A DNA stretch of 64,000 bases from Actinomycetota bacterium. Its GTDB lineage: Bacteria; Actinomycetota; Actinomycetes; Streptosporangiales; Streptosporangiaceae. The stretch lies in NCBI GenBank assembly GCA_027313705.1, contig DAHVDE010000067.1:62001-126000 (forward strand). The letters run 5' to 3'. The translations under genes were made by a program, and so were the position numbers. Below are positions 32,193-41,870 of this stretch, piece after piece (positions within the stretch are counted from its first letter, which is position 1; every line of letters begins with the position of its first letter). The notes below the pieces were generated by a model that ran no database searches, had not been told where the DNA came from, and was given only the letters and a program-made list of their open reading frames with translations.

Positions 32193-33422
32193 ATGAACGA
32201 TTTCACCCGGTTGCTCACTGCCCAGGTCGCCGCTGACGCCCGTACGCTGCCCGCGAGGGCGCTGGCCAGGCTGAGTGCGGCAAACCCGGCCAGCAGGGCA
32301 GGGACGATCAGTGAATTGCGTGCGGTCGCCGCCAGGCGGGTGCCCAGGGTCGTGTTCGATTACGTGGACGGCGGTGCGGGGGACGAGATCACGTTGCGGC
32401 GCAACCAGACCGCACTCCGTGACATTGAGTTGCGGCCGCGAGTTCTCGTGGATGTATCAAAGGTAGTAACGGCGACTACCGCGCTTTCCGAGCCTATCGC
32501 GTTGCCATTGATCGCCGCCCCGATGGGGCTTGCCGGGCTGCTGAACCCGGCAGGCGAGGTGGCGATCGCGCGCGCCATGAGCGAGGCCCGTTCCATCAGC
32601 ATCCTTTCTGTGATGGCCTCTTGCCCGGTTGAGGAGGTGGCCGCCGCCGCGCCAGGGCCGCTCTGGTTCCAGATGTACTTGTGGCGCGACCGCGGCCTGG
32701 TCAGGGACATGCTTGCCCGGGTCAGGGCGGCGGGCGTGAACGTGCTCGTGGTGACGGTGGACGTGCCGTGCGCTGGCAACAGGGATCGCGACAGAAAGAA
32801 CGGCTTTACCGTGCCGCCCAGGATCACGGCGAGGGCACTTGCCGATGGCATAGTTCACCCGCGCTGGTCATATGACTTCGTCCGCAATCCGAGGATCAGC
32901 TGGGGCAACTTGCCTGGCGACTCCGCTGCCAGTGCCGCGTCGCTGAGCACTCGCACGAACCAGCAGTTCGACCCGGCCGCGACGTGGCCGGACCTGACCT
33001 GGTTCCGCGAGAACTGGCCAGGCCGCCTGGTGATCAAGGGCGTGCTCGATCCCGCGGACGCCAGGCGAGCGGTAGAACTTGGCGCCGAGGCCGTCGTCGT
33101 CTCCAACCACGGCGGCAGGCAGCTAGACGGTGCCCGGGCGACGATCAGCGCGCTTCCTGCCGTCAGCGAAGCCGTCGGTGATGCTGCGGAGGTCTACCTC
33201 GACGGCGGCATCAGGCGCGGCGCCGACATCGCCAAGGCTGTCGCCCTCGGCGCTCGTGCCTGCCTGGCCGGGCGGGCGCTAGCATACGGTCTCGGCGCGG
33301 CCGGGCAGCCCGGAGTCAGTCGTGCCGTCGAGATCCTTGGCTCAGAGCTGAGAACCGTGCTTGCGCTGACCGGTTGCCCGCAGGTCAGCGACTTGAGCCC
33401 GGCCTGGGTAAGGCAGCCGTGA
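32193..33422 (+). CDS. FMN-dependent alpha-hydroxyacid dehydrogenase/oxidase (LldD-like)
   Basis: 409-residue TIM-barrel flavoenzyme oxidising L-2-hydroxy acids. VFDYVDGGAGDEITLRRN and LPLIAAPMGLAGLLNP bind FMN, WFQMYLWRD follows, and SNHGGRQLDGARATI holds the catalytic His and substrate Arg; YLDGGIRRGADIAKAVALGA binds the FMN phosphate. An N-terminal extension of about 35 residues precedes the conserved core. Divergent from two sugar-acid dehydrogenases, so it may feed a hydroxy-acid catabolic route. Lactate, glycolate and mandelate enzymes share this fold. Confidence 0.9.
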   Translation: MNDFTRLLTAQVAADARTLPARALARLSAANPASRAGTISELRAVAARRVPRVVFDYVDGGAGDEITLRRNQTALRDIELRPRVLVDVSKVVTATTALSEPIALPLIAAPMGLAGLLNPAGEVAIARAMSEARSISILSVMASCPVEEVAAAAPGPLWFQMYLWRDRGLVRDMLARVRAAGVNVLVVTVDVPCAGNRDRDRKNGFTVPPRITARALADGIVHPRWSYDFVRNPRISWGNLPGDSAASAASLSTRTNQQFDPAATWPDLTWFRENWPGRLVIKGVLDPADARRAVELGAEAVVVSNHGGRQLDGARATISALPAVSEAVGDAAEVYLDGGIRRGADIAKAVALGARACLAGRALAYGLGAAGQPGVSRAVEILGSELRTVLALTGCPQVSDLSPAWVRQP

Positions 33423-33444
33423 GCTTTTGTGCCCCTACCTGCGG

Positions 33445-35652
33445 CTAACCCTTCCAGACATAGGTCGCGCCGTGATGGTCGCCGACGGCGAGCATGCTGC
33501 CGTCGTGGCTGAAGCCGACCGCCCAGACGTTGCCGGGGCTGGGCAGTGCCTGGACGGCCTGGTCGTCGCTCAGCCGCCAGAGATAGGTGTAGCCGCTGAC
33601 GTCGCCGGTCGCGAGCAGGGTTCCGTCCGGGCTGAACGCCAGTGCCTCCACCGCGGGGCTGGCGTTGGGGTCGGCAAGCGTGGCGGTCAGGCTGCCGGTC
33701 GAGACGTTCCACAGGTAGGTGGAGCCGTTGAATGACCCGGTGGCAAGGGTGGCGCCGTCCGGGCTGAACTGCACCGCAAGCACGCCAGAGCCGGGCACTG
33801 GCAGCGAGCTGGTCTGGGTCCTTGTCGACACCTGCCACAGGTAGGCGGTTCCGTTGTAGTCACCGGTAGCCAGCGTGGTTCCTCCGGGGCTGAAGGCCAG
33901 CGTGTTGACGCCAGTGGAGGCGGGGTCGGAGAGCTCACCTGACAGCTTTCCCGAGGCGACGCTCCAGAGCCGCACATCGCCGCTGCCGTCACCGGCCGCG
34001 ACGGTGCTGCCTGCCGGGTTGAACGCGATCGACTCGACCGCGCGGCCCGATACCGGCATCAGCTGGACCGGCTGGGCGTTGCCTGCCGGGCGCCACAGGT
34101 AGACGCTTCCCGCGGAATCGCCGATCGCGAGCGTCCTGCCGTCTGGGCTGAACGCCAGCGCGAGCACAGGAACCTGGCCAGGGATGCTGACCGAACCGGA
34201 TTCCTGGCCGGTGGCTGGGTTCCAGAGGTAGACGGTGCCGTTGTTCCCCGCGGTCGCCAGCGTGCCTGAAGCGCTGAAGGCGAGCGTGCTGACCCCGGCG
34301 TTCTTGCCTGCCGGATTCAGCGTGCGAAACCTGGTGAACGAGGTGGGCTGAGGAGTGCGTGCCTGGCTGGCGCCGCTGCCAGGGTTCTGTTTCTGGCCGT
34401 TAGAGCTGATCAGAAGGCTGCCGGCCACGATGCCCGCCGCGACCACGATCGCGCCGGCGATGGCAACGGCCGAGCGCTGCCTGGCGCGGCCGGCGGCGGG
34501 CGCTGGCCGGTACTGTGCGCCTCGGCCGGTCGGCGTCAGGTAGGGGTAAGGCGCGTAGGGCGTGGCCTGAGCAGGTCCGTAGCCTGGCTGCGGCAGGTAA
34601 CCGGGTGCGTAGCCTGGCACTTGTACCTGGCCTGGCTGTACCGGTGCGGGCGGGGTCGGTGCGGGCTGTACCGGTGCGGGCTGTACCGGTGCGGGCGGCC
34701 GCCCCGCGTGGCTGGGCGGCGGCAGCACGGCCTCGGTCGGAGTGCGGGCGGCCTGGTCACCGATCGCGCTTGGTCCCGGCTCGTACTGCGGCAGCCGCAG
34801 CGCCTCGCGCAGCGCGGCAGTGAAGTCACGGCAGGTCGGGTAACGGGCGGCAGGCGATTTGGCAAGAGCACGGGCGAGCACGTCGTCGGCCTGCGAGGGA
34901 AGGTCTGGTCGCCTGGACGTCAGCGCAGGAACCTCGTCCCTGACGTGCGCCCAGATCATCGCCATCGGCTGGTCACGGGTAAATGGCGGGGTGCCTGACA
35001 GCAGTTCGTACGCCGAGCAGGCCAGTGAGTACTGGTCGGCACGGCCGTCGACGGGCTCGCCTTCTATCTGCTCGGGCGCCATGTAGTCGAGCGTCCCGAC
35101 GAAGACGCCGGTACGGGTCAGGGCGGAACCGGACATGACGTCCTTGCTGATGCCGAAGTCCGACAGGTAAATATGGTCAGGCCGGTCGCCGCCAGTGCTG
35201 ACATCCATCAGCATGTTGGCGGGCTTGACGTCCCTGTGCACCAGGTCGTGGCGGTGCGCGGAGTCGAGAGCGGAAGCCACCTGCGACAAGATCAGCGCGG
35301 CGCGTCCCCTGGGCAGCGGTCCCGACTCGTGCACGTGGCTGTGCACGTCACCGCCTGGCACATACCGCATCGCGATGAACAGCGCGTTGTCAGACTCGCC
35401 CGCCTCGAAGACCGGGATGATGTGCGGGTCGTCAACTGAAGCGGCCACCCGCGATTCCCTGATGAACCTGAGCCTGAATGCCTCGTCCTGCGCCAGTTCT
35501 GGCGCCAGTACCTTGAGCGCCACCTTCCTGCTCAGCCGTTCGTCGGTGGCGAGGTACACCACGGCCATGCCGCCCGCGCCCAGCCGGCGCTCAATCAGGT
35601 ACCCGGCTACCCGCGATCCCTGCGGCAATCCCTGAATGGGTACATCGGCCAT
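33445..35652 (-). CDS. Membrane Ser/Thr protein kinase with C-terminal WD40 propeller
   Basis: 735 residues. Kinase domain 15-285: glycine loop LGAGGMAVVYLA, Lys47 in VALKVL, HRDVKPAN (Asp141), DFG (165-167), APEQ. A Pro/Gln-rich linker with repeated APVQP follows, then one membrane helix (about 394-417), then seven WD40-type blades (440-735), each with FSPDG...LATGD...YLW. Kinase inside, propeller outside, as in other actinobacterial PknD-like sensors. The second ATG (35652) fits GGGGAGG better than the ATG at 35655. It is the last member of the minus-strand TIR-CHAT set, 69 nt after the WD40 gene. Confidence 0.92.
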   Translation of the reverse strand: MADVPIQGLPQGSRVAGYLIERRLGAGGMAVVYLATDERLSRKVALKVLAPELAQDEAFRLRFIRESRVAASVDDPHIIPVFEAGESDNALFIAMRYVPGGDVHSHVHESGPLPRGRAALILSQVASALDSAHRHDLVHRDVKPANMLMDVSTGGDRPDHIYLSDFGISKDVMSGSALTRTGVFVGTLDYMAPEQIEGEPVDGRADQYSLACSAYELLSGTPPFTRDQPMAMIWAHVRDEVPALTSRRPDLPSQADDVLARALAKSPAARYPTCRDFTAALREALRLPQYEPGPSAIGDQAARTPTEAVLPPPSHAGRPPAPVQPAPVQPAPTPPAPVQPGQVQVPGYAPGYLPQPGYGPAQATPYAPYPYLTPTGRGAQYRPAPAAGRARQRSAVAIAGAIVVAAGIVAGSLLISSNGQKQNPGSGASQARTPQPTSFTRFRTLNPAGKNAGVSTLAFSASGTLATAGNNGTVYLWNPATGQESGSVSIPGQVPVLALAFSPDGRTLAIGDSAGSVYLWRPAGNAQPVQLMPVSGRAVESIAFNPAGSTVAAGDGSGDVRLWSVASGKLSGELSDPASTGVNTLAFSPGGTTLATGDYNGTAYLWQVSTRTQTSSLPVPGSGVLAVQFSPDGATLATGSFNGSTYLWNVSTGSLTATLADPNASPAVEALAFSPDGTLLATGDVSGYTYLWRLSDDQAVQALPSPGNVWAVGFSHDGSMLAVGDHHGATYVWKG

Positions 35653-35721
35653 CATTGCCTCCCCAACAAGAAACCGACGCCTGACCGACCATACCGCCTC
35701 AATAGCCAGGCGGAGGTTTGG

Positions 35722-36990
35722 TCAGGCAGACCACAGATGAGCCGCTTTACCGGCCCGCGTCGCCAGTTGAACGCTGTCGGGGCTGAAGGTCGCAGAGGTG
35801 ACAGCGGAGTTGTGCGGAATCCTCGCGAGCAGCTTGCCGGTCGCTGCTTCCCAGAGCTGAGCGATCTTGTCCGCGCCTGCCGTAACGAGTTGCCTGCCGT
35901 CGGGGCTGAAGCGCGCTACTTGCGAATAGCCGTGCTGCGTCCTGACGAGCTCTTGTCCGCTGGCCGTGTCCCAGAGCCTGATCGTCCCGACCGAGTTGAC
36001 CGTCACCAGGCGAGTGCCGGTCGCGTCGAACGCGATCGATGTCAGGTGCTGGTCGTCTTGCGCACGGAGTGTTTCCTTGCCGCTTGCGATCTGCCATACC
36101 CTGGCCATGTTTCCGCTTACGGTGGCGAGATATTCACTGTCCGGGCTGTAGGCCAGCGCGGTGACCGTACGGGCGTGCGGCAGCAGGCCGACCGGCGCGG
36201 CGCTGTAGAGGTCCCACAGCCTGACCGTCCGGTCGGAACTGGCGGTTGCCAGTACCCCGCTGTCAGGGGCGAACGAGATGGTCCAGCGCTCCATGCGCTC
36301 GAGCCAGGGCGCGAGCTGGCCGCTGACGGAGTCCCACATCCTGGTCACGCCGTCCACGCTGTAAGTGACCAGGCGGGAACTGTCCGGACTGAACGCCGTC
36401 ACGGACACGTCTTCGTCGTGCCTGATCGGCGCGACGCGCTGCCCGGTCGCGACGTCCCAGAGCGTCGCGGCGTTAGAGTACTGGCAAAGGGCGATGAGTC
36501 GTTTGCTGTTCTTGCTGAAGCCCACCGCGGCGACAAGCCGGTCGTGTGAGAGCCGGGCCATTTCCTGGCCATCGGGACTCCAGAGCCTGGCGATCTTCTC
36601 GTCGCTTACCGTCGCGATCCTTGACCCGTCTTCGCTGAAGCGTGCCGAGGTGACCGACGCGAAGTGCTCAAGTCGCGAGATCTCGCCGCCCATGATGGCG
36701 TCCCACAAGATGGCAGAGCGGTTGCCCGCGATTGCCGCCGGGCGAAGCCTGGACACCAGTCTGGTGCCGTCAGGGCTCAGGGAAATACCTGCTACTGCTC
36801 GCTCGTGCCGCAGTCCGGCGATCTCGTTGCCCATACCGTCCCACAGCCGTACCTTCGCGTCAGAGTTAGCCGTCAGGACGCGGTCGTCGGCCAGGCTGAA
36901 GACCAGGTCGGTCGTTTCAGGTGCACGATGAAGCTGGCCAATCGGCGCACCCGGAGCGAGTCCTGGCAGGCGCTGCCTGTGCACGGGCAC
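35722..36990 (-). CDS. WD40-repeat protein (start uncertain, possible frameshift at the 5' end)
   Basis: 422 residues made of about nine WD40 blades with recurrent FSPDS.RLVT / VRLWD patterns and no other domain, so a soluble propeller scaffold. GTG 36990 is the only start in frame but has a poor ribosome site and opens in the middle of a Pro/Gly-rich segment. An excellent site (AAGGAAGGAAG) with ATG 37120 lies upstream in another frame, 22 nt after the TIR-CHAT stop; that frame stops after 67 codons and overlaps the WD40 frame. Either a +1 shift or sequence error joins them. Propellers of this kind often recognise the trigger in conflict systems. Confidence 0.76.
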   Translation of the reverse strand: MPVHRQRLPGLAPGAPIGQLHRAPETTDLVFSLADDRVLTANSDAKVRLWDGMGNEIAGLRHERAVAGISLSPDGTRLVSRLRPAAIAGNRSAILWDAIMGGEISRLEHFASVTSARFSEDGSRIATVSDEKIARLWSPDGQEMARLSHDRLVAAVGFSKNSKRLIALCQYSNAATLWDVATGQRVAPIRHDEDVSVTAFSPDSSRLVTYSVDGVTRMWDSVSGQLAPWLERMERWTISFAPDSGVLATASSDRTVRLWDLYSAAPVGLLPHARTVTALAYSPDSEYLATVSGNMARVWQIASGKETLRAQDDQHLTSIAFDATGTRLVTVNSVGTIRLWDTASGQELVRTQHGYSQVARFSPDGRQLVTAGADKIAQLWEAATGKLLARIPHNSAVTSATFSPDSVQLATRAGKAAHLWSA

Positions 36991-37142
36991 TGGTTCTTTG
37001 CCGGGTACCGAGCCGCCCGCAGGCTGGCCGGGCCGCGGCGCCCGATCCTGGCGGGGAACCTCGACCCGGCCGAAGCACGGCGGCTACCTCGTGCGGGTCG
37101 CCTAGCGGCGCTGACGTCATTGTCTTCCTTCCTTAGGGATGA

Positions 37143-38759
37143 TCAGGCGGCGAAATCGAATAGCCGGGTCTGGCCGCCGCGCAGGCAGAGCACGGGAATG
37201 ACCCATTCGAGAACGTAGCCGCCGGTGCCGAGGATGCCGATCCGGCCGCTTGACATGGCCTGGTCCAGGTCGGCGCCGCGGGCGATTGCGCCATAAAAGC
37301 CGCCGGCGAAGGCGATGGCCGCCTGGTCGCTGATCTTGACCTGCATGGCCGCCACCGCGCTGACGCCGCCCGCGATCAGTTTCGTGGCGGTGCTGGCAAA
37401 GAGCCCGTCTGCCGCACCTTCGCAGGAGTTGAGTACGACCAGCCTCGGCATGGAGCCGGCCACGCGGAGCAGGTCGGTGAAGCGGCTCGCCGCTACCTGA
37501 TGCGGCCGCCCGCCGGCCCGGGCGAGCACGATTCCGCTTTCCCCGCCGATGGCCTCGCCCTGGCCAGGGGAAGCGCCATGGCCGACGAAATGGATAACGT
37601 GCCATTGGCCGCCGAGCAAGGCATTCTGCAAGGAACTCCAGGTCGCGTCGGGCACCCACTCGATTTCGGCTAGTCCGTCCCGCACCGGTCCTGCCAGCGC
37701 CCTGGCAAGCAGGCCACGCTCGCGGTCCACGCTGACCGGCGGCAGGCCGTGCGGCGAGGAGGTGACGCCGAGGATGCGAAGCGGCGGCCGGACCGCGAGC
37801 GGCGCCGGCGCCGCGGGGACACTGACGCTCCTGGCGAGATGATCGTGCCTGGCCACGTAGGTGTCCCTGGTCTCGTCGTACATGGCTTCCCACGGCAGCC
37901 TGGCCAGGTCAGCGGTCTCGGCCCGCAGCAAGATTCGCAGCGGGCGGTTCCGCTGCGCCGCGATGGCGAGATTGGCGCGATACATGCCTGACACTGGTTC
38001 GGTGCCAAGCAGGGCGGCGAATAGCTGCTGGCCGATCGCGCGAACGGCACGCCCGGTTTCCTGCGCCCGGCGGGCGGATCTTCTCTCCTGGTCGGAGAGT
38101 ATCTCGCCAAGGGCCTGCCAGCGGGCCGCGATGTCATCAGGGTCGAGCAGGGCGACTGAGGAACCTTCACCGGCTTGCGAGCGGACGACGGTTGCCCTGT
38201 ACCTGCCCGCCTCGCGGGCGGGCTCGATTGCCAGTTCAATGGTGACCGGTTCGCCGCAGGCCGCTAGCCGAGCTGGCCGGGCGGGCGTTCCGCCCGAGGG
38301 CTCGCCGAGAACCGCCCTGATCCTGGTAATCAGCCGGGCTGCGCCCGCTTCGAAGCGCTCGCCGGACAGGTCGGCGGGCGTGAGCGAGCCAAGTGTGCGC
38401 CCGCCGCCAAGCTCCCACTCAGGGATCGTGCAATCGTCGAAACGGACCGGCATGAGCCAGGCATCTTCTGGCCGGCGAAGCCGCAGTTGATCTATCGCAA
38501 GCACAAGTTGCTCGTTCTGCAGGCTCCTGCTCTTCCCCAGGCTGTGCCAGGAAAAGCACGCGATGAAAACGAGGGCGTCATTCGCGATGGCCTGCCTTAT
38601 CCGCAGCCGCCAGTCCTCGCCAGGCCAGAGGTCGTCCGTATCACGCCAAACCAGAATATTTGCGCTTTCGAGTATTTGCTGCAACCGGTCGACCAGAAGG
38701 GAATCGTCGTGGTCATAGCTGAGGAAGACATGCCCGCGCGCTTCAGCCGATTGCCTCAT
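37143..38759 (-). CDS. TIR-CHAT fusion, predicted NADase plus caspase-like protease
   Basis: 538 residues. The TIR domain (about 8-150) begins HVFLSYDHDDSLLVDRL, continues VWRDTDDLWPGEDW, and has a candidate catalytic Glu83 in SLQNEQLVLAID; TIR domains cleave NAD or make cyclic ADP-ribose signals. A middle helical part follows. The C-terminal CHAT domain (about 325-535) has the caspase-like dyad His394 in HFVGHGAS and Cys446 in VVLNSCEGA. Start ATG 38759 overlaps the upstream SLOG gene by 17 nt, so expression is coupled. TIR and CHAT domains are known effectors of bacterial immunity and cell death; which activity operates here is inference. Confidence 0.9.
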   Translation of the reverse strand: MRQSAEARGHVFLSYDHDDSLLVDRLQQILESANILVWRDTDDLWPGEDWRLRIRQAIANDALVFIACFSWHSLGKSRSLQNEQLVLAIDQLRLRRPEDAWLMPVRFDDCTIPEWELGGGRTLGSLTPADLSGERFEAGAARLITRIRAVLGEPSGGTPARPARLAACGEPVTIELAIEPAREAGRYRATVVRSQAGEGSSVALLDPDDIAARWQALGEILSDQERRSARRAQETGRAVRAIGQQLFAALLGTEPVSGMYRANLAIAAQRNRPLRILLRAETADLARLPWEAMYDETRDTYVARHDHLARSVSVPAAPAPLAVRPPLRILGVTSSPHGLPPVSVDRERGLLARALAGPVRDGLAEIEWVPDATWSSLQNALLGGQWHVIHFVGHGASPGQGEAIGGESGIVLARAGGRPHQVAASRFTDLLRVAGSMPRLVVLNSCEGAADGLFASTATKLIAGGVSAVAAMQVKISDQAAIAFAGGFYGAIARGADLDQAMSSGRIGILGTGGYVLEWVIPVLCLRGGQTRLFDFAA

Positions 38760-39264
38760 GAGCAGAGCCTATGAGATCAAGCGGCGGTCTTAAGTGCCAT
38801 ACTTCGGGCGGCAGAGCCTGATTGACCGCCTCTTCCGGTGAATGTGCCGTGCTCTCAAGCCGGCCCTCGATAGACCAGCCGGCCAGGATTGCCACTGGCT
38901 TGCCTGTCCGTTTCGCGAAAGCTATCTCGCTCATGGTGCCCCAGCTCCCGCCGATCGCGATCACCGCGTCGCAAGCCCGTACCACCAGGCCATTGCGCAA
39001 TTCGCCGATCCCGGTCGGCAGCGCGATGGTCAGGTAAGGGTTGCCAGCGCCGCGGTCATCTCCCGGCAGCAGCCCGACGGTAAGGCCGCCTCGTCCGGCC
39101 GCCCCCTCGCAGGCCGCCGCCATGACTCCGCCGAGCCCGCCGCATACCAGGACCGCGCCGCGTTCGGCCAGCAGGCGCCCTACCTGCCGCGCGAGGCGTG
39201 ACAGGCCGGCCGGTGCGCCGTCGCCTGGCCCGATGACCGCGACGTATCCGCTCCGCGATGTCAT
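38743..39264 (-). CDS. SLOG/LOG-family nucleotide-binding protein (TIGR00725-like)
   Basis: 173-residue Rossmann-like protein. VAVIGPGDG starts the fold, LVCGGLGGVMAAACEGA is the first nucleotide-binding loop, and IAIGGSWGTMSEIAFA matches the PGGxGTxxE motif of LOG phosphoribohydrolases with Pro replaced. SLOG domains bind NAD- or nucleotide-derived messengers and are repeatedly linked to TIR enzymes in bacterial defence loci; other members hydrolyse nucleoside monophosphates. ATG 39264 has GAGAGG upstream. First gene of the minus-strand set and overlapping the TIR-CHAT gene. Confidence 0.88.
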   Translation of the reverse strand: MTSRSGYVAVIGPGDGAPAGLSRLARQVGRLLAERGAVLVCGGLGGVMAAACEGAAGRGGLTVGLLPGDDRGAGNPYLTIALPTGIGELRNGLVVRACDAVIAIGGSWGTMSEIAFAKRTGKPVAILAGWSIEGRLESTAHSPEEAVNQALPPEVWHLRPPLDLIGSAHEAIG

Positions 39265-39371
39265 GACGTCCTCTCAGTTTCCCGCTGCCGGGAATCTCGC
39301 GGCTCATTGAAGGTTGCACGGCAGCGTACGATCAAAGACGACACTACGTGTTCGGGCTGGAGGCTGGACCG

Positions 39372-39551
39372 ATGATCAGGGTGAAAACAGGTCCGAGACT
39401 GGGACTGGGCCCGCTGCAGTTGCTCGGCGGCGGCCTGCTGCTGATGCACCTCGACCGGGCCGTCAGGCACCAGCGGACGTGCGAGAGGTGCGAGGGGCGC
39501 GACTTCATGGCGATCACCATGGACGTCGGGCACCTGTGGGGTAACGCCTAG
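39372..39551 (+). CDS. Small protein of unknown function with CxxC
   Basis: 59 residues starting MIRVKTGPRLGLG, with a short hydrophobic stretch (LLGGGLLLMHL) and a CERC motif. Start ATG 39372 has GGAGG about 9 nt upstream; GTG 39348 is an alternative. A TACGAT at 39327-39332 may be a -10. It is divergent from the SLOG/TIR-CHAT operon and may share its promoter region. No family recognised. Confidence 0.45.
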   Translation: MIRVKTGPRLGLGPLQLLGGGLLLMHLDRAVRHQRTCERCEGRDFMAITMDVGHLWGNA

Positions 39552-39636
39552 CACCCGCCCGGCCCGAACTTAGCGGGTCAGGCTTGACCGGCCGCGCGCC
39601 CGGCGGCTGGCGCTGCCGGTCAAGTAAACCCGGCTG

Positions 39637-40485
39637 CTACCCGAGGACCGCGACCTTGTAGTCGTAGTACTTGGCTAGGTAGTTCAGCGTCGAGGCATGC
39701 AGCAGGTAGTCGCCGTCCAGGGCGAACTGCGTGCTCCAGGAGTTCCTGACCTTGATGACGGTGTTGTTGAGCTCGACGGTGCCATCGCTGGTCTGGGCGA
39801 CTTGGACGATGCCGCGCTGCAGGGTCTCGTGTCCGCCCGCCACCCCTGACCCGATAGCGGCGTGGAGCGCAGCCAGGCTTCCGTCGCCGTCGACGAAGCC
39901 GTTGCTGTCCGGGTTCATCCAGGAGTTGAACCAGGGACCGCCCTGCATGACCGTGCCGGTCTGAAGCAGCGACAGGCACGCGACCACGTTTGGCGCTGAC
40001 TGGTAGCTCGCGGCGAAGCCGAGGTGGATGAGTTCCTGGCAGACGTACAGGCCGCTCGACCCGCAGTCGGTCGGCGGCCATTCCTGGGCCGGATCACCGG
40101 TCTGGTCGGTGACCAGATGGTAGAGGACGATCGCGAACTCCTCGTCGGTCATCGCGTTCGTGGCCGACACGCTGACCTGCCCGGACTGTGCGGCGAGAGT
40201 CAGGCCGGAGATGTCCTTGCCGGCCGCGGCCCAGCGCTCGGCGATGTGCGCGGTGCCCGCGTTGCAGGTGCAAGAGCCGAGCGCGTCCGCGTTCTGCGCC
40301 CCGGCGACGAGCTGGGTCACGTTGATGCCCTGAGCATGCAGGTCTTCCTGGTCGAGGACCGGGATGGGGATGTCATGCACGACTTCCTTGAGCGCCGATC
40401 CGTCGTGGAACGCCAGCAGATCGAACCGCAGCGGTTCCGCTACGGCTATCTGACCGAATTTGGTCCTGGTCGGACCCTCATACAT
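39637..40485 (-). CDS. Papain-like (C1-type) cysteine peptidase homologue
   Basis: 282 residues without a signal peptide. The triad is readable: Cys72 in DALGSCTCNAGTA (family LGSCTxNA), His219 in GVAGGHETL, Asn248 in VRNSWSTQFALDGDYL (family NSWG...GY). The N-terminal HDIPIPVLDQEDLH resembles a short propeptide. ATG 40485 has GGAGG 5 nt upstream; the longer frame contains no domain. It lies just upstream of a small gene and the TIR-CHAT set but on its own transcript. Could act on proteins or be a toxin-like effector. Confidence 0.77.
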   Translation of the reverse strand: MYEGPTRTKFGQIAVAEPLRFDLLAFHDGSALKEVVHDIPIPVLDQEDLHAQGINVTQLVAGAQNADALGSCTCNAGTAHIAERWAAAGKDISGLTLAAQSGQVSVSATNAMTDEEFAIVLYHLVTDQTGDPAQEWPPTDCGSSGLYVCQELIHLGFAASYQSAPNVVACLSLLQTGTVMQGGPWFNSWMNPDSNGFVDGDGSLAALHAAIGSGVAGGHETLQRGIVQVAQTSDGTVELNNTVIKVRNSWSTQFALDGDYLLHASTLNYLAKYYDYKVAVLG

Positions 40486-40594
40486 AGCGCCTCCATTCAG
40501 GTTCTTTCGTTTTAGGGTAATGGTGAAATTGCTCGACGAGCCTATAGCTTCGGCCGGGGTGCTGCCAGTGGCCCGGCAGTAAGACACTTGGTCG

Positions 40595-40864
40595 GTGAGG
40601 TTCGCTATTTCGGTACGGCCAGGGGCGGTACATGCCGGTGTCGGTGGTGAGCGCGCGGGCGCGCTGATAGTGCGGGTCAATGAGCGGGCGGAAGGAGGCC
40701 GGGCGACGGAGGCCGCGCTCGCGGCGGTAGCTGCAGCGTTCGGTGTGCGGCGCGGCGATGTGACCCTGGTGACCGGCAAGACCAGCCGCACTAAGGTGGT
40801 CGAGGTCGCCGGGGGTGACCAGGGGCTGCTCGATCGCCTGCTCGCGGCGGCCGATTCGCGGTAG
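40595..40864 (+). CDS. DUF167 (YggU-family) protein
   Basis: 89-residue small alpha/beta protein; VRPGAVHAGVGG, VNERAEGGRATEA and GDVTLVTGKTSRTKVVEV match the DUF167/YggU family, which is widespread and of unknown function. GTG 40595 start. Divergent from the papain-like gene with 109 nt between; convergent with the next gene. Confidence 0.86.
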   Translation: MRFAISVRPGAVHAGVGGERAGALIVRVNERAEGGRATEAALAAVAAAFGVRRGDVTLVTGKTSRTKVVEVAGGDQGLLDRLLAAADSR

Positions 40865-40901
40865 CAGGGGCGCGGGCCGGCGGGCAGCGGGTCCGCTCGC
40901 C

Positions 40902-41870
40902 TTACGGCTGCCACTGGATGCCGTAGCCCAGGTACATCACCAGGTCGCTGAATTGCGCGTGCACCTCGCCGGCCGCGTCAGGGACGAGCAGGTCGCCGGT
41001 CTTCCTCGGCTGTTCGTACATCCTGACCGTCTCGCCAGCCAGCCGCCTTACCCACTGCGGCGGACGATCGGGGTGAAAACGGATCTTCAGGTCAAGCGTG
41101 TCGCACCGGTATTCCGGAGTCAGCAGGTAACGCGAACTCATCGGCTTGTCGTCGGCGACGCGGGCGATCAGCGCGTATTCGTGCTCCTGTCCGGCCTGCA
41201 GCGGTGCGGGCAGTTGCACGATGTACTGGTACCGGTTACCGAACGGCTGCTCCCGCCTGACCAGCCGGCCGCCGTGCAGCACCTCGGCGGAAAGCGCAGG
41301 CCCGGTTCCCCCGTTGTTGCTCGGGACGTCGACCCAGGCCATGACCTCGCGCAGGTCGTCGCGGGTAGCCACGATCCTGCGGTGCTGTATCGACTCTGGC
41401 ACCGGCGTGTCGAGGCGAAGCAGCGCGCGGACCTCGGCCAGGTACCAGCCCTGCGGTCCGGCCAGGATCTGGCTGCGGCGGCGCTGCAATTCGCCTGCGA
41501 TCTGCTCGGCCAACAGGCGTTCGGCTTCCCTGACCCTGCGCTTGCCGGTGCGGAACTCCCTGCCGAGCTGCTCTGACAGCCACTGGACCCGCTGGTCGAG
41601 GTGCGGCATCTCCTTGGCCTGACCGGACAGCGCGAGGCTGGCCGTCACGGCGAGGCGCAAGTCGGCGGGCAACTGGGCCGCGCAGCCGTTGAGCTGAACC
41701 TTGAGCGCCTCCCGCAAGTTCGCCGGCTCCGCGTCGGCCAGCTCGAGCAGGTGCTTGCCGACACGCTGGCGCAGGTCGCTGGACTGAATGGCGCGACCCT
41801 TGTGCAGCGACTGAAGTTCAGCCTCGATCAGCTCGATCAGGCTCTCGGTTTCTGATTGGTTTGCTGTCAT
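40902..41870 (-). CDS. Conserved unknown protein with helical N-terminus and beta-rich C-terminus
   Basis: 322 residues, no signal peptide. Residues 1-130 are acidic and helical, probably coiled (SLIELIEAELQSLHKG, VREAERLLAEQIAGEL). Residues 140-320 look beta-rich with Trp/Tyr-rich stretches and end YLGYGIQWQP. No known domain recognised. It neighbours the effector-like genes and may belong to the same accessory block. ATG start at 41870 with a weak ribosome site. Confidence 0.66.
   Translation of the reverse strand: MTANQSETESLIELIEAELQSLHKGRAIQSSDLRQRVGKHLLELADAEPANLREALKVQLNGCAAQLPADLRLAVTASLALSGQAKEMPHLDQRVQWLSEQLGREFRTGKRRVREAERLLAEQIAGELQRRRSQILAGPQGWYLAEVRALLRLDTPVPESIQHRRIVATRDDLREVMAWVDVPSNNGGTGPALSAEVLHGGRLVRREQPFGNRYQYIVQLPAPLQAGQEHEYALIARVADDKPMSSRYLLTPEYRCDTLDLKIRFHPDRPPQWVRRLAGETVRMYEQPRKTGDLLVPDAAGEVHAQFSDLVMYLGYGIQWQP

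Follow-up and report, generated by a model that had tools for sequence, protein, structure and literature searches.

Gene content and layout of the locus

The window, a stretch of 64,000 nucleotides with a GC content of about 67%, is part of contig C63 in a genome of 5.3 Mb and 118 contigs. Between positions 33445 and 39264, the list of open reading frames and Pfam placed four minus-strand genes, encoding a SLOG protein, a TIR-CHAT fusion, a WD40 propeller and a kinase with a transmembrane segment and a WD40 tail (Table 1), in agreement with the genes and domains claimed in the initial annotation, which had been made from the sequence alone. The tight packing that it had described was found as well, the SLOG and TIR-CHAT genes overlapping by 17 nt and the WD40 and kinase genes being separated by 66 nt. 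This overlap suggests co-translation of SLOG and TIR-CHAT and counts for membership of SLOG in a common unit. Scanning 33200-39700 returned no sigma-70-like promoter sites and five terminator-like sites, compared with 2.7 (sd 1.8) in shuffled sequences. The terminator-like site at 39645-39629 lies upstream of SLOG, so that SLOG may open the transcript, with no clear excess of such sites over shuffles.

Table 1 Features of the locus in window coordinates
Feature	Position	Strand	Evidence or remark
SLOG/LDcluster4 (TIGR00725) protein, 173 aa	38743-39264	-	Pfam LDcluster4 7.8e-43; TIGR00725 2.9e-35
TIR-CHAT fusion, 538 aa	37143-38759	-	Pfam TIR_2 5e-17, CHAT 2.3e-25
TIR Glu83 codon	38511-38513	-	invariant in 8/8 close TIR sequences
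CHAT His394 codon	37578-37580	-	invariant in 12/12 CHAT sequences
CHAT Cys446 codon	37422-37424	-	invariant in 12/12 CHAT sequences
ATG with good ribosome-binding site, 22 nt past the TIR-CHAT gene	37118-37120	-	other frame, stop after about 66 codons
WD40 propeller reading frame, 422 aa, candidate 5' end	35722-36990	-	Pfam WD40 8.5e-46
Hairpin between WD40 and kinase genes, 17-pair imperfect stem	35679-35727	-	folding energy
Ser/Thr kinase-TM (398-416)-WD40 protein, 736 aa	33445-35655	-	Pkinase 3.1e-45, WD40 3.3e-41

The flanking genes look metabolic by Pfam (transport, SDR, epimerase, FMN and luciferase-like enzymes). We rejected a defence island as the setting, as ten flanking proteins gave a single PADLOC match, to an oxidoreductase. 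No STAND NTPase was present among the families listed for nine locus proteins (25 of 43 families for the two WD40-bearing proteins).

Two further minus-strand genes lie upstream of SLOG. Positions 39637-40485 encode a 282-aa protein without an NCBIfam match (a longer reading, 39637-40914, is without a Pfam match), in which GSCTCNAGTAHI and a late NSW look, as we presume, papain-like. Positions 40902-41870 encode a 322-aa protein without a family, which has three paralogues in this genome (on contigs C45, C106 and C1) and no match in four congeners. Near the C45 paralogue, at a distance of about 3 kb, is a CHAT gene that matches weakly.

The TIR-CHAT protein joins two known folds

TIR domains cut NAD and CHAT domains are caspase-like proteases, and both are often used in bacterial self-destruction. 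In the fusion protein, TIR covers residues 11-144, the N-part of CHAT about 170-240 and CHAT itself 243-510. Three residues had been proposed as intact active-site positions, and all three proved to be placed exactly and to be invariant in the aligned relatives (Table 1): E83, which we take from other TIRs to be the catalytic glutamate, and H394 and C446, the predicted His/Cys dyad of CHAT. Degenerate TIR or CHAT sites, which would have spoken against the annotation, were looked for in these alignments and not found. The TIR alignment of eight sequences left out a ninth TIR, that of locus L136, which in the CHAT alignment places an Asp opposite E83 in a stretch where the alignment is uncertain; a TIR-CHAT fusion thus need not imply an active TIR.

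Structure prediction, suggested as a check in the initial annotation, upheld the two domain assignments. An AlphaFold2 model built with 19 aligned sequences reached a mean pLDDT of 84.7 and a pTM of 0.72, with low confidence at residues 1-6 and 156-167, the linker near 156-167 being the least confident inner stretch. In structural alignments, the CHAT half matched SAVED-CHAT (8tl0; Z 20.4, 194 aligned residues, 2.9 Å), Csx29 (8eex; Z 20.3, 298 aligned, 3.6 Å), separase (5fc2; Z 19.3) and the membrane anti-sigma factor DdvA (8rw5; Z 17.8), while residues 8-153 matched the SPARTA TIR (8ifl; Z 15.9, 135 aligned, 2.8 Å), MyD88 (7beq; Z 14.8) and Cat1 (9mue; Z 14.0). The PADLOC SAVED_CHAT model matched residues 270-501, which is the CHAT part, and a ThsB match in the fusion was weak (E 0.0093). 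Both halves are predicted to adopt known folds, and the interest lies in their combination.

No other single match across both domains was obtained in 297 order, 394 class, 341 family and 396 phylum genomes, sets that overlap and in which the best three or four candidates per genome were scored at E limits of 1e-10 to 1e-20. One further TIR-CHAT fusion, L136, was recognized by a Pfam scan after recovery through its CHAT only, and such searches can therefore overlook fusions whose TIR has diverged. A search of genome contigs yielded two relatives, both TIR only; one TIR relative was located in a Frankiaceae MAG. The full TIR-CHAT protein was absent from all four congeners, and the relatives examined usually carry TIR or CHAT alone rather than both in one chain. 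A mobile origin was considered and rejected: the 12 plasmid records and one phage record that matched each covered one domain only and at most 67% of TIR-CHAT, and no record in these collections covered both TIR and CHAT.

Two TIR loci are of separate note. At L129 (7477-9511; L039 lies on the same contig), two overlapping tandem TIR genes are 57-61% identical to the window TIR, and at L046 in this genome (7016-10798), a C-terminal TIR with 58% identity directly precedes a protein that reads by eye as TIR-NTPase-repeat.

A propeller recurs behind CHAT in relatives

The partners of CHAT were surveyed in 17 relatives (E<1e-8) with flanking DNA (10 kb at most and less near contig ends), after dropping the window's own locus (L009). 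Outside this count stand L137, L138, L140-L146, L147 and L148-L150 as well as the more distant CHAT loci L020-L035; L137, L138, L140-L146 and L148-L150 were viewed by a motif script, and L138, L142 and L146 by Pfam.

A propeller follows CHAT in six of the 17 (L042, L049, L126, L128, L132 and L134). With the window proteins as tblastn queries, WD40 was found directly behind CHAT in L042, L049, L128 and L132, and Pfam placed WD40 there in L042, L128 and L132 and a PD40 propeller in L134. The L049 match to the window WD40 reached 8e-45, in a locus whose own CHAT reading frame is interrupted. L126, from the same genus (G297:C343), holds the CHAT stretch of highest identity (62% over residues 419-535) and shows CHAT (3.5e-16) and then WD40 (1.4e-9) in a single 176-aa frame; it is a remnant that misses the earlier CHAT part and retains the later part plus one WD40 repeat, followed by two stops. 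We see in L126 the strongest argument for CHAT and WD40 belonging together in this lineage. L146, beyond the 17 loci, is a further CHAT-propeller case.

In the other 11 relatives, no propeller was found behind CHAT. The C-terminal ends seen by Pfam were TPR (L127), CBM9 (L135) and NB-ARC-TPR (L044), and Pfam gave nothing beyond CHAT in L041, L043, L050, L051, L052, L130 and L131; in L130, a propeller gene of its own lies on the opposite strand at a distance of 6.7 kb. As far as the consulted part of PMC7159879 goes, these relatives fit the pattern of a constant protease with a variable partner in actinobacteria. TIR stands ahead of CHAT in one of the 17 (L136, by Pfam), and the window TIR had no tblastn match in any. 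In no relative examined are TIR-CHAT and WD40 encoded by two neighbouring genes; the split arrangement is thus seen at the present locus only.

SLOG and the kinase mostly occur apart from TIR and CHAT

Conserved co-occurrence of the four gene families, put forward in the initial annotation as a check on their belonging together, was not seen around CHAT: within the fetched flanks (10 kb at most), tblastn detected SLOG in none of the 17 relatives and a kinase domain in one, L044. Loci collected from the side of SLOG and from the side of the kinase give a similar picture.

The SLOG protein passes the TIGR00725 cut-off, its solved relatives include a molybdenum cofactor carrier (PDB matches 6y01, 1rcu and 2iz5), and it contains a glycine-rich GGSWGTMSE stretch common to most of the close SLOG relatives listed. 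Matches were found in 56 of 60 genomes at E<=0.001, 16 of them (own genome included) at <=1e-29 and the others at 1e-9 or weaker. In all 16 other SLOG loci inspected (15 genes and one fragment, L087, at about 50-69% identity), matches to TIR, CHAT and the kinase were absent at E<=1e-4 over 4.6-20 kb per locus, and the neighbouring genes vary between loci (in a comparison without L078, dropped for length). SLOG as a signal receiver, as initially annotated, is unsupported by these 16 loci.

These data bear on a three-gene operon of SLOG, TIR-CHAT and WD40, in which SLOG would bind, store or destroy a nucleotide produced by TIR and so serve as its receptor, sponge or safety valve. The 17-nt same-strand overlap with TIR-CHAT argues for it, as do the terminator-like site upstream of SLOG, with the reservation given above on its excess over shuffles, and the GGSWGTMSE stretch, LOG-fold proteins being known to act on nucleotides. 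Against these stand the missing TIR or CHAT in 16/16 SLOG loci, the absence of SLOG from the fetched flanks of all 17 CHAT relatives and the lack of an effector domain fused to SLOG, unlike ThsA of Thoeris, which is a SLOG fused to an effector part; no ThsA match was obtained, and in Pfam the protein matched LDcluster4 only. We consider this operon rather unlikely and SLOG membership of the TIR-CHAT module doubtful, the pointer to SLOG reading a putative TIR signal being adjacency only.

The kinase carries VALKV (from 45), HRD (from 140) and SDFG (from 165) motifs, and a single strongly hydrophobic segment spans 398-416; the protein therefore appears active and membrane-anchored, which bears out its description as a membrane Ser/Thr kinase with a WD40 tail. 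Its best PADLOC match was PD-T4-6 (8.7e-100), but 34 models match, mostly kinases among the 25 listed, and the sequence looks like that of a general Ser/Thr kinase. The family is expanded, with matches at E<=1e-100 in 12 of 60 genomes (own included) and up to nine per genome (four here, nine in G297). TIR, CHAT and SLOG had no match in five of five kinase loci examined (L102-L105 and L110; 4 to 20 kb), among which L102 (G297:C105) holds a full-length relative with 57% identity. L044 departs from this: a CHAT-NB-ARC gene and a kinase-WD40 gene, with 63% identity in the kinase part, lie there tail to tail with 1.7 kb between their ends. We rejected the kinase as a relay, since its family is widespread and, in these five loci, found apart from TIR, CHAT and SLOG; adjacency is the only pointer to such a role, and the kinase-WD40 protein is probably not part of the TIR-CHAT module. 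As a separate observation, L104 in this genome (6395-11344) has two tandem kinase-type genes beside a gene with an FHA-like start by eye.

Between the WD40 and kinase genes, the hairpin in Table 1 folds with -37.3 kcal/mol for an 86-nt stretch (z -2.7; matched by 3 of 200 shuffles), making it a possible terminator without a U-run, one that the terminator scan of 33200-39700 did not flag. In G297, of the same genus, SLOG (66% identity), the kinase and the CHAT-WD40 remnant are on three different contigs; the missing linkage is suggestive rather than proof, because this assembly is 81% complete and in about 680 contigs.

The initial annotation had read the four genes as one circuit, in which the propeller senses a trigger, the membrane kinase relays it, TIR signals to SLOG and CHAT cuts a target. 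Tight one-strand packing and the nearby kinase-WD40 and CHAT genes of L044 would favour such a circuit, but both the kinase-WD40 and the SLOG family occur apart from TIR and CHAT in every other locus examined, the G297 genes are scattered as described, and the hairpin intervenes, so that we regard it as highly improbable. One part of that interpretation stands, the link between TIR-CHAT and WD40, through the CHAT-propeller relatives; the circuit itself is unsupported, SLOG being apart in 16/16 loci and the kinase in 5/5, an outcome that the initial annotation had named as refuting the unit. The locus illustrates how a four-part circuit can be read from adjacency alone without backing from relatives.

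The WD40 gene lacks a convincing start

The WD40 frame has weak start codons only, such as the GTG at 36990, and the ATG at 37120 with its good ribosome-binding site is in another frame (Table 1); that ATG may be the intended WD40 start, followed by a frameshift. Over 36880-37095, codon-position composition points to the WD40 frame in places, but unevenly. The simplest reading of these sequence features would be a frameshift within 36880-37095, be it a true lesion or an assembly error; otherwise the gene would begin at the weak GTG. The WD40 gene may be broken.

A locus in decay, its module non-working through a WD40 frameshift as in the same-genus remnant L126, would account for the out-of-frame start, and G297:C343, reduced to the later part of CHAT and a single WD40 repeat ahead of two stops, offers a parallel. 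Yet TIR-CHAT is fully open with every catalytic residue present, and an assembly error would look the same; we give decay a low probability.

A candidate two-part module

With moderate confidence, we favour TIR-CHAT and WD40 as a two-part conflict or cell-death module, with SLOG and the kinase most likely as neighbours. It is anchored in the domains, the intact catalytic residues, the predicted folds and the recurrent CHAT-propeller fusion in relatives. Such a module may have originated from the actinobacterial design of a CHAT protease with a variable C-terminal partner; at this locus, the propeller has a reading frame to itself, and TIR would have been added ahead of CHAT. The WD40 propeller might sense a trigger or scaffold assembly and then free or cluster TIR-CHAT, whereupon TIR would split NAD+ and CHAT would cleave a partner protein or its own linker near 156-167. 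NAD+ loss and cleavage together would lead to growth arrest, and the SLOG and kinase genes would serve separate functions of their own. The trigger, target and product of the TIR-CHAT/WD40 pair, and an anti-phage role, are inferred. A variant in which CHAT controls the TIR NADase within one polypeptide, the propeller signal causing a cut of the presumably disordered linker at about 156-167 that frees or clusters TIR, and co-translated SLOG reading or mopping up the product, appears very improbable.

Should both sites of the two-part module be active, NAD loss would be coupled to proteolysis in one switch. The recurrent CHAT-propeller fusions provide a defined candidate sensor-effector pair.

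Relation to known systems

TIR and CHAT in one protein are already known and recur in L136: the consulted part of PMC10907252 describes a predicted conflict protein of Thiohalocapsa PB-PSB1 that contains both and that, at the DGR 2 locus, is targeted by a diversity-generating retroelement. That part mentions no WD40 neighbour of DGR 2, whereas WD40 adjoins TIR-CHAT here. The term 'TIR-CHAT' was absent from the literature searched, which excluded most subscription papers. As far as the consulted part of PMC7159879 (Kaur et al. 2020) goes, the two-gene EACC1/caspase system, prevalent in actinobacteria, has a protease of the caspase superfamily whose C-terminal partner domain is highly variable; the likeness lies in the protease with a variable partner, but the design as described there is without the N-terminal TIR that TIR-CHAT has. 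EACC1 had no match in this genome, nor in the control genomes.

Resemblance to SAVED-CHAT (CHAT matches 8tl0, 2.1e-12) and TIR-SAVED (TIR matches 7qqk, 2.1e-5) is limited by the absence of SAVED, Pfam giving only TIR_2 and CHAT in the protein. Similarly, the CHAT fold is shared with Craspase TPR-CHAT/Csx29 (Z about 20 over about 295 residues), but a Pfam match to TPR is absent from TIR-CHAT. Thoeris also has TIR and SLOG in one locus; here, in contrast, TIR is fused to a protease and SLOG is a free-standing LDcluster4 protein. The latter, judged by its TIGR00725 score and the PDB matches given above, would resemble the molybdenum cofactor carrier and TIGR00725 LOG-like proteins.

Trypco1-associated protease systems offer a further comparison: Trypco1 adjoins two CHAT relatives, and no match was found in this genome (control match in 1 of 14). 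The Trypco1 genes lie beside CHAT genes at L128 (12069-12410) and L131 (8880-9257), one of which is a CHAT-WD40 fusion. Small proteins with similar starts, without a Pfam match, also stand beside CHAT at L130 (7257-7733) and L132 (7774-8205) and may form an unnamed partner family. Finally, at L142 (1468-4068), CHAT is fused to a solute-binding domain (SBP_bac_1, 4.8e-18).
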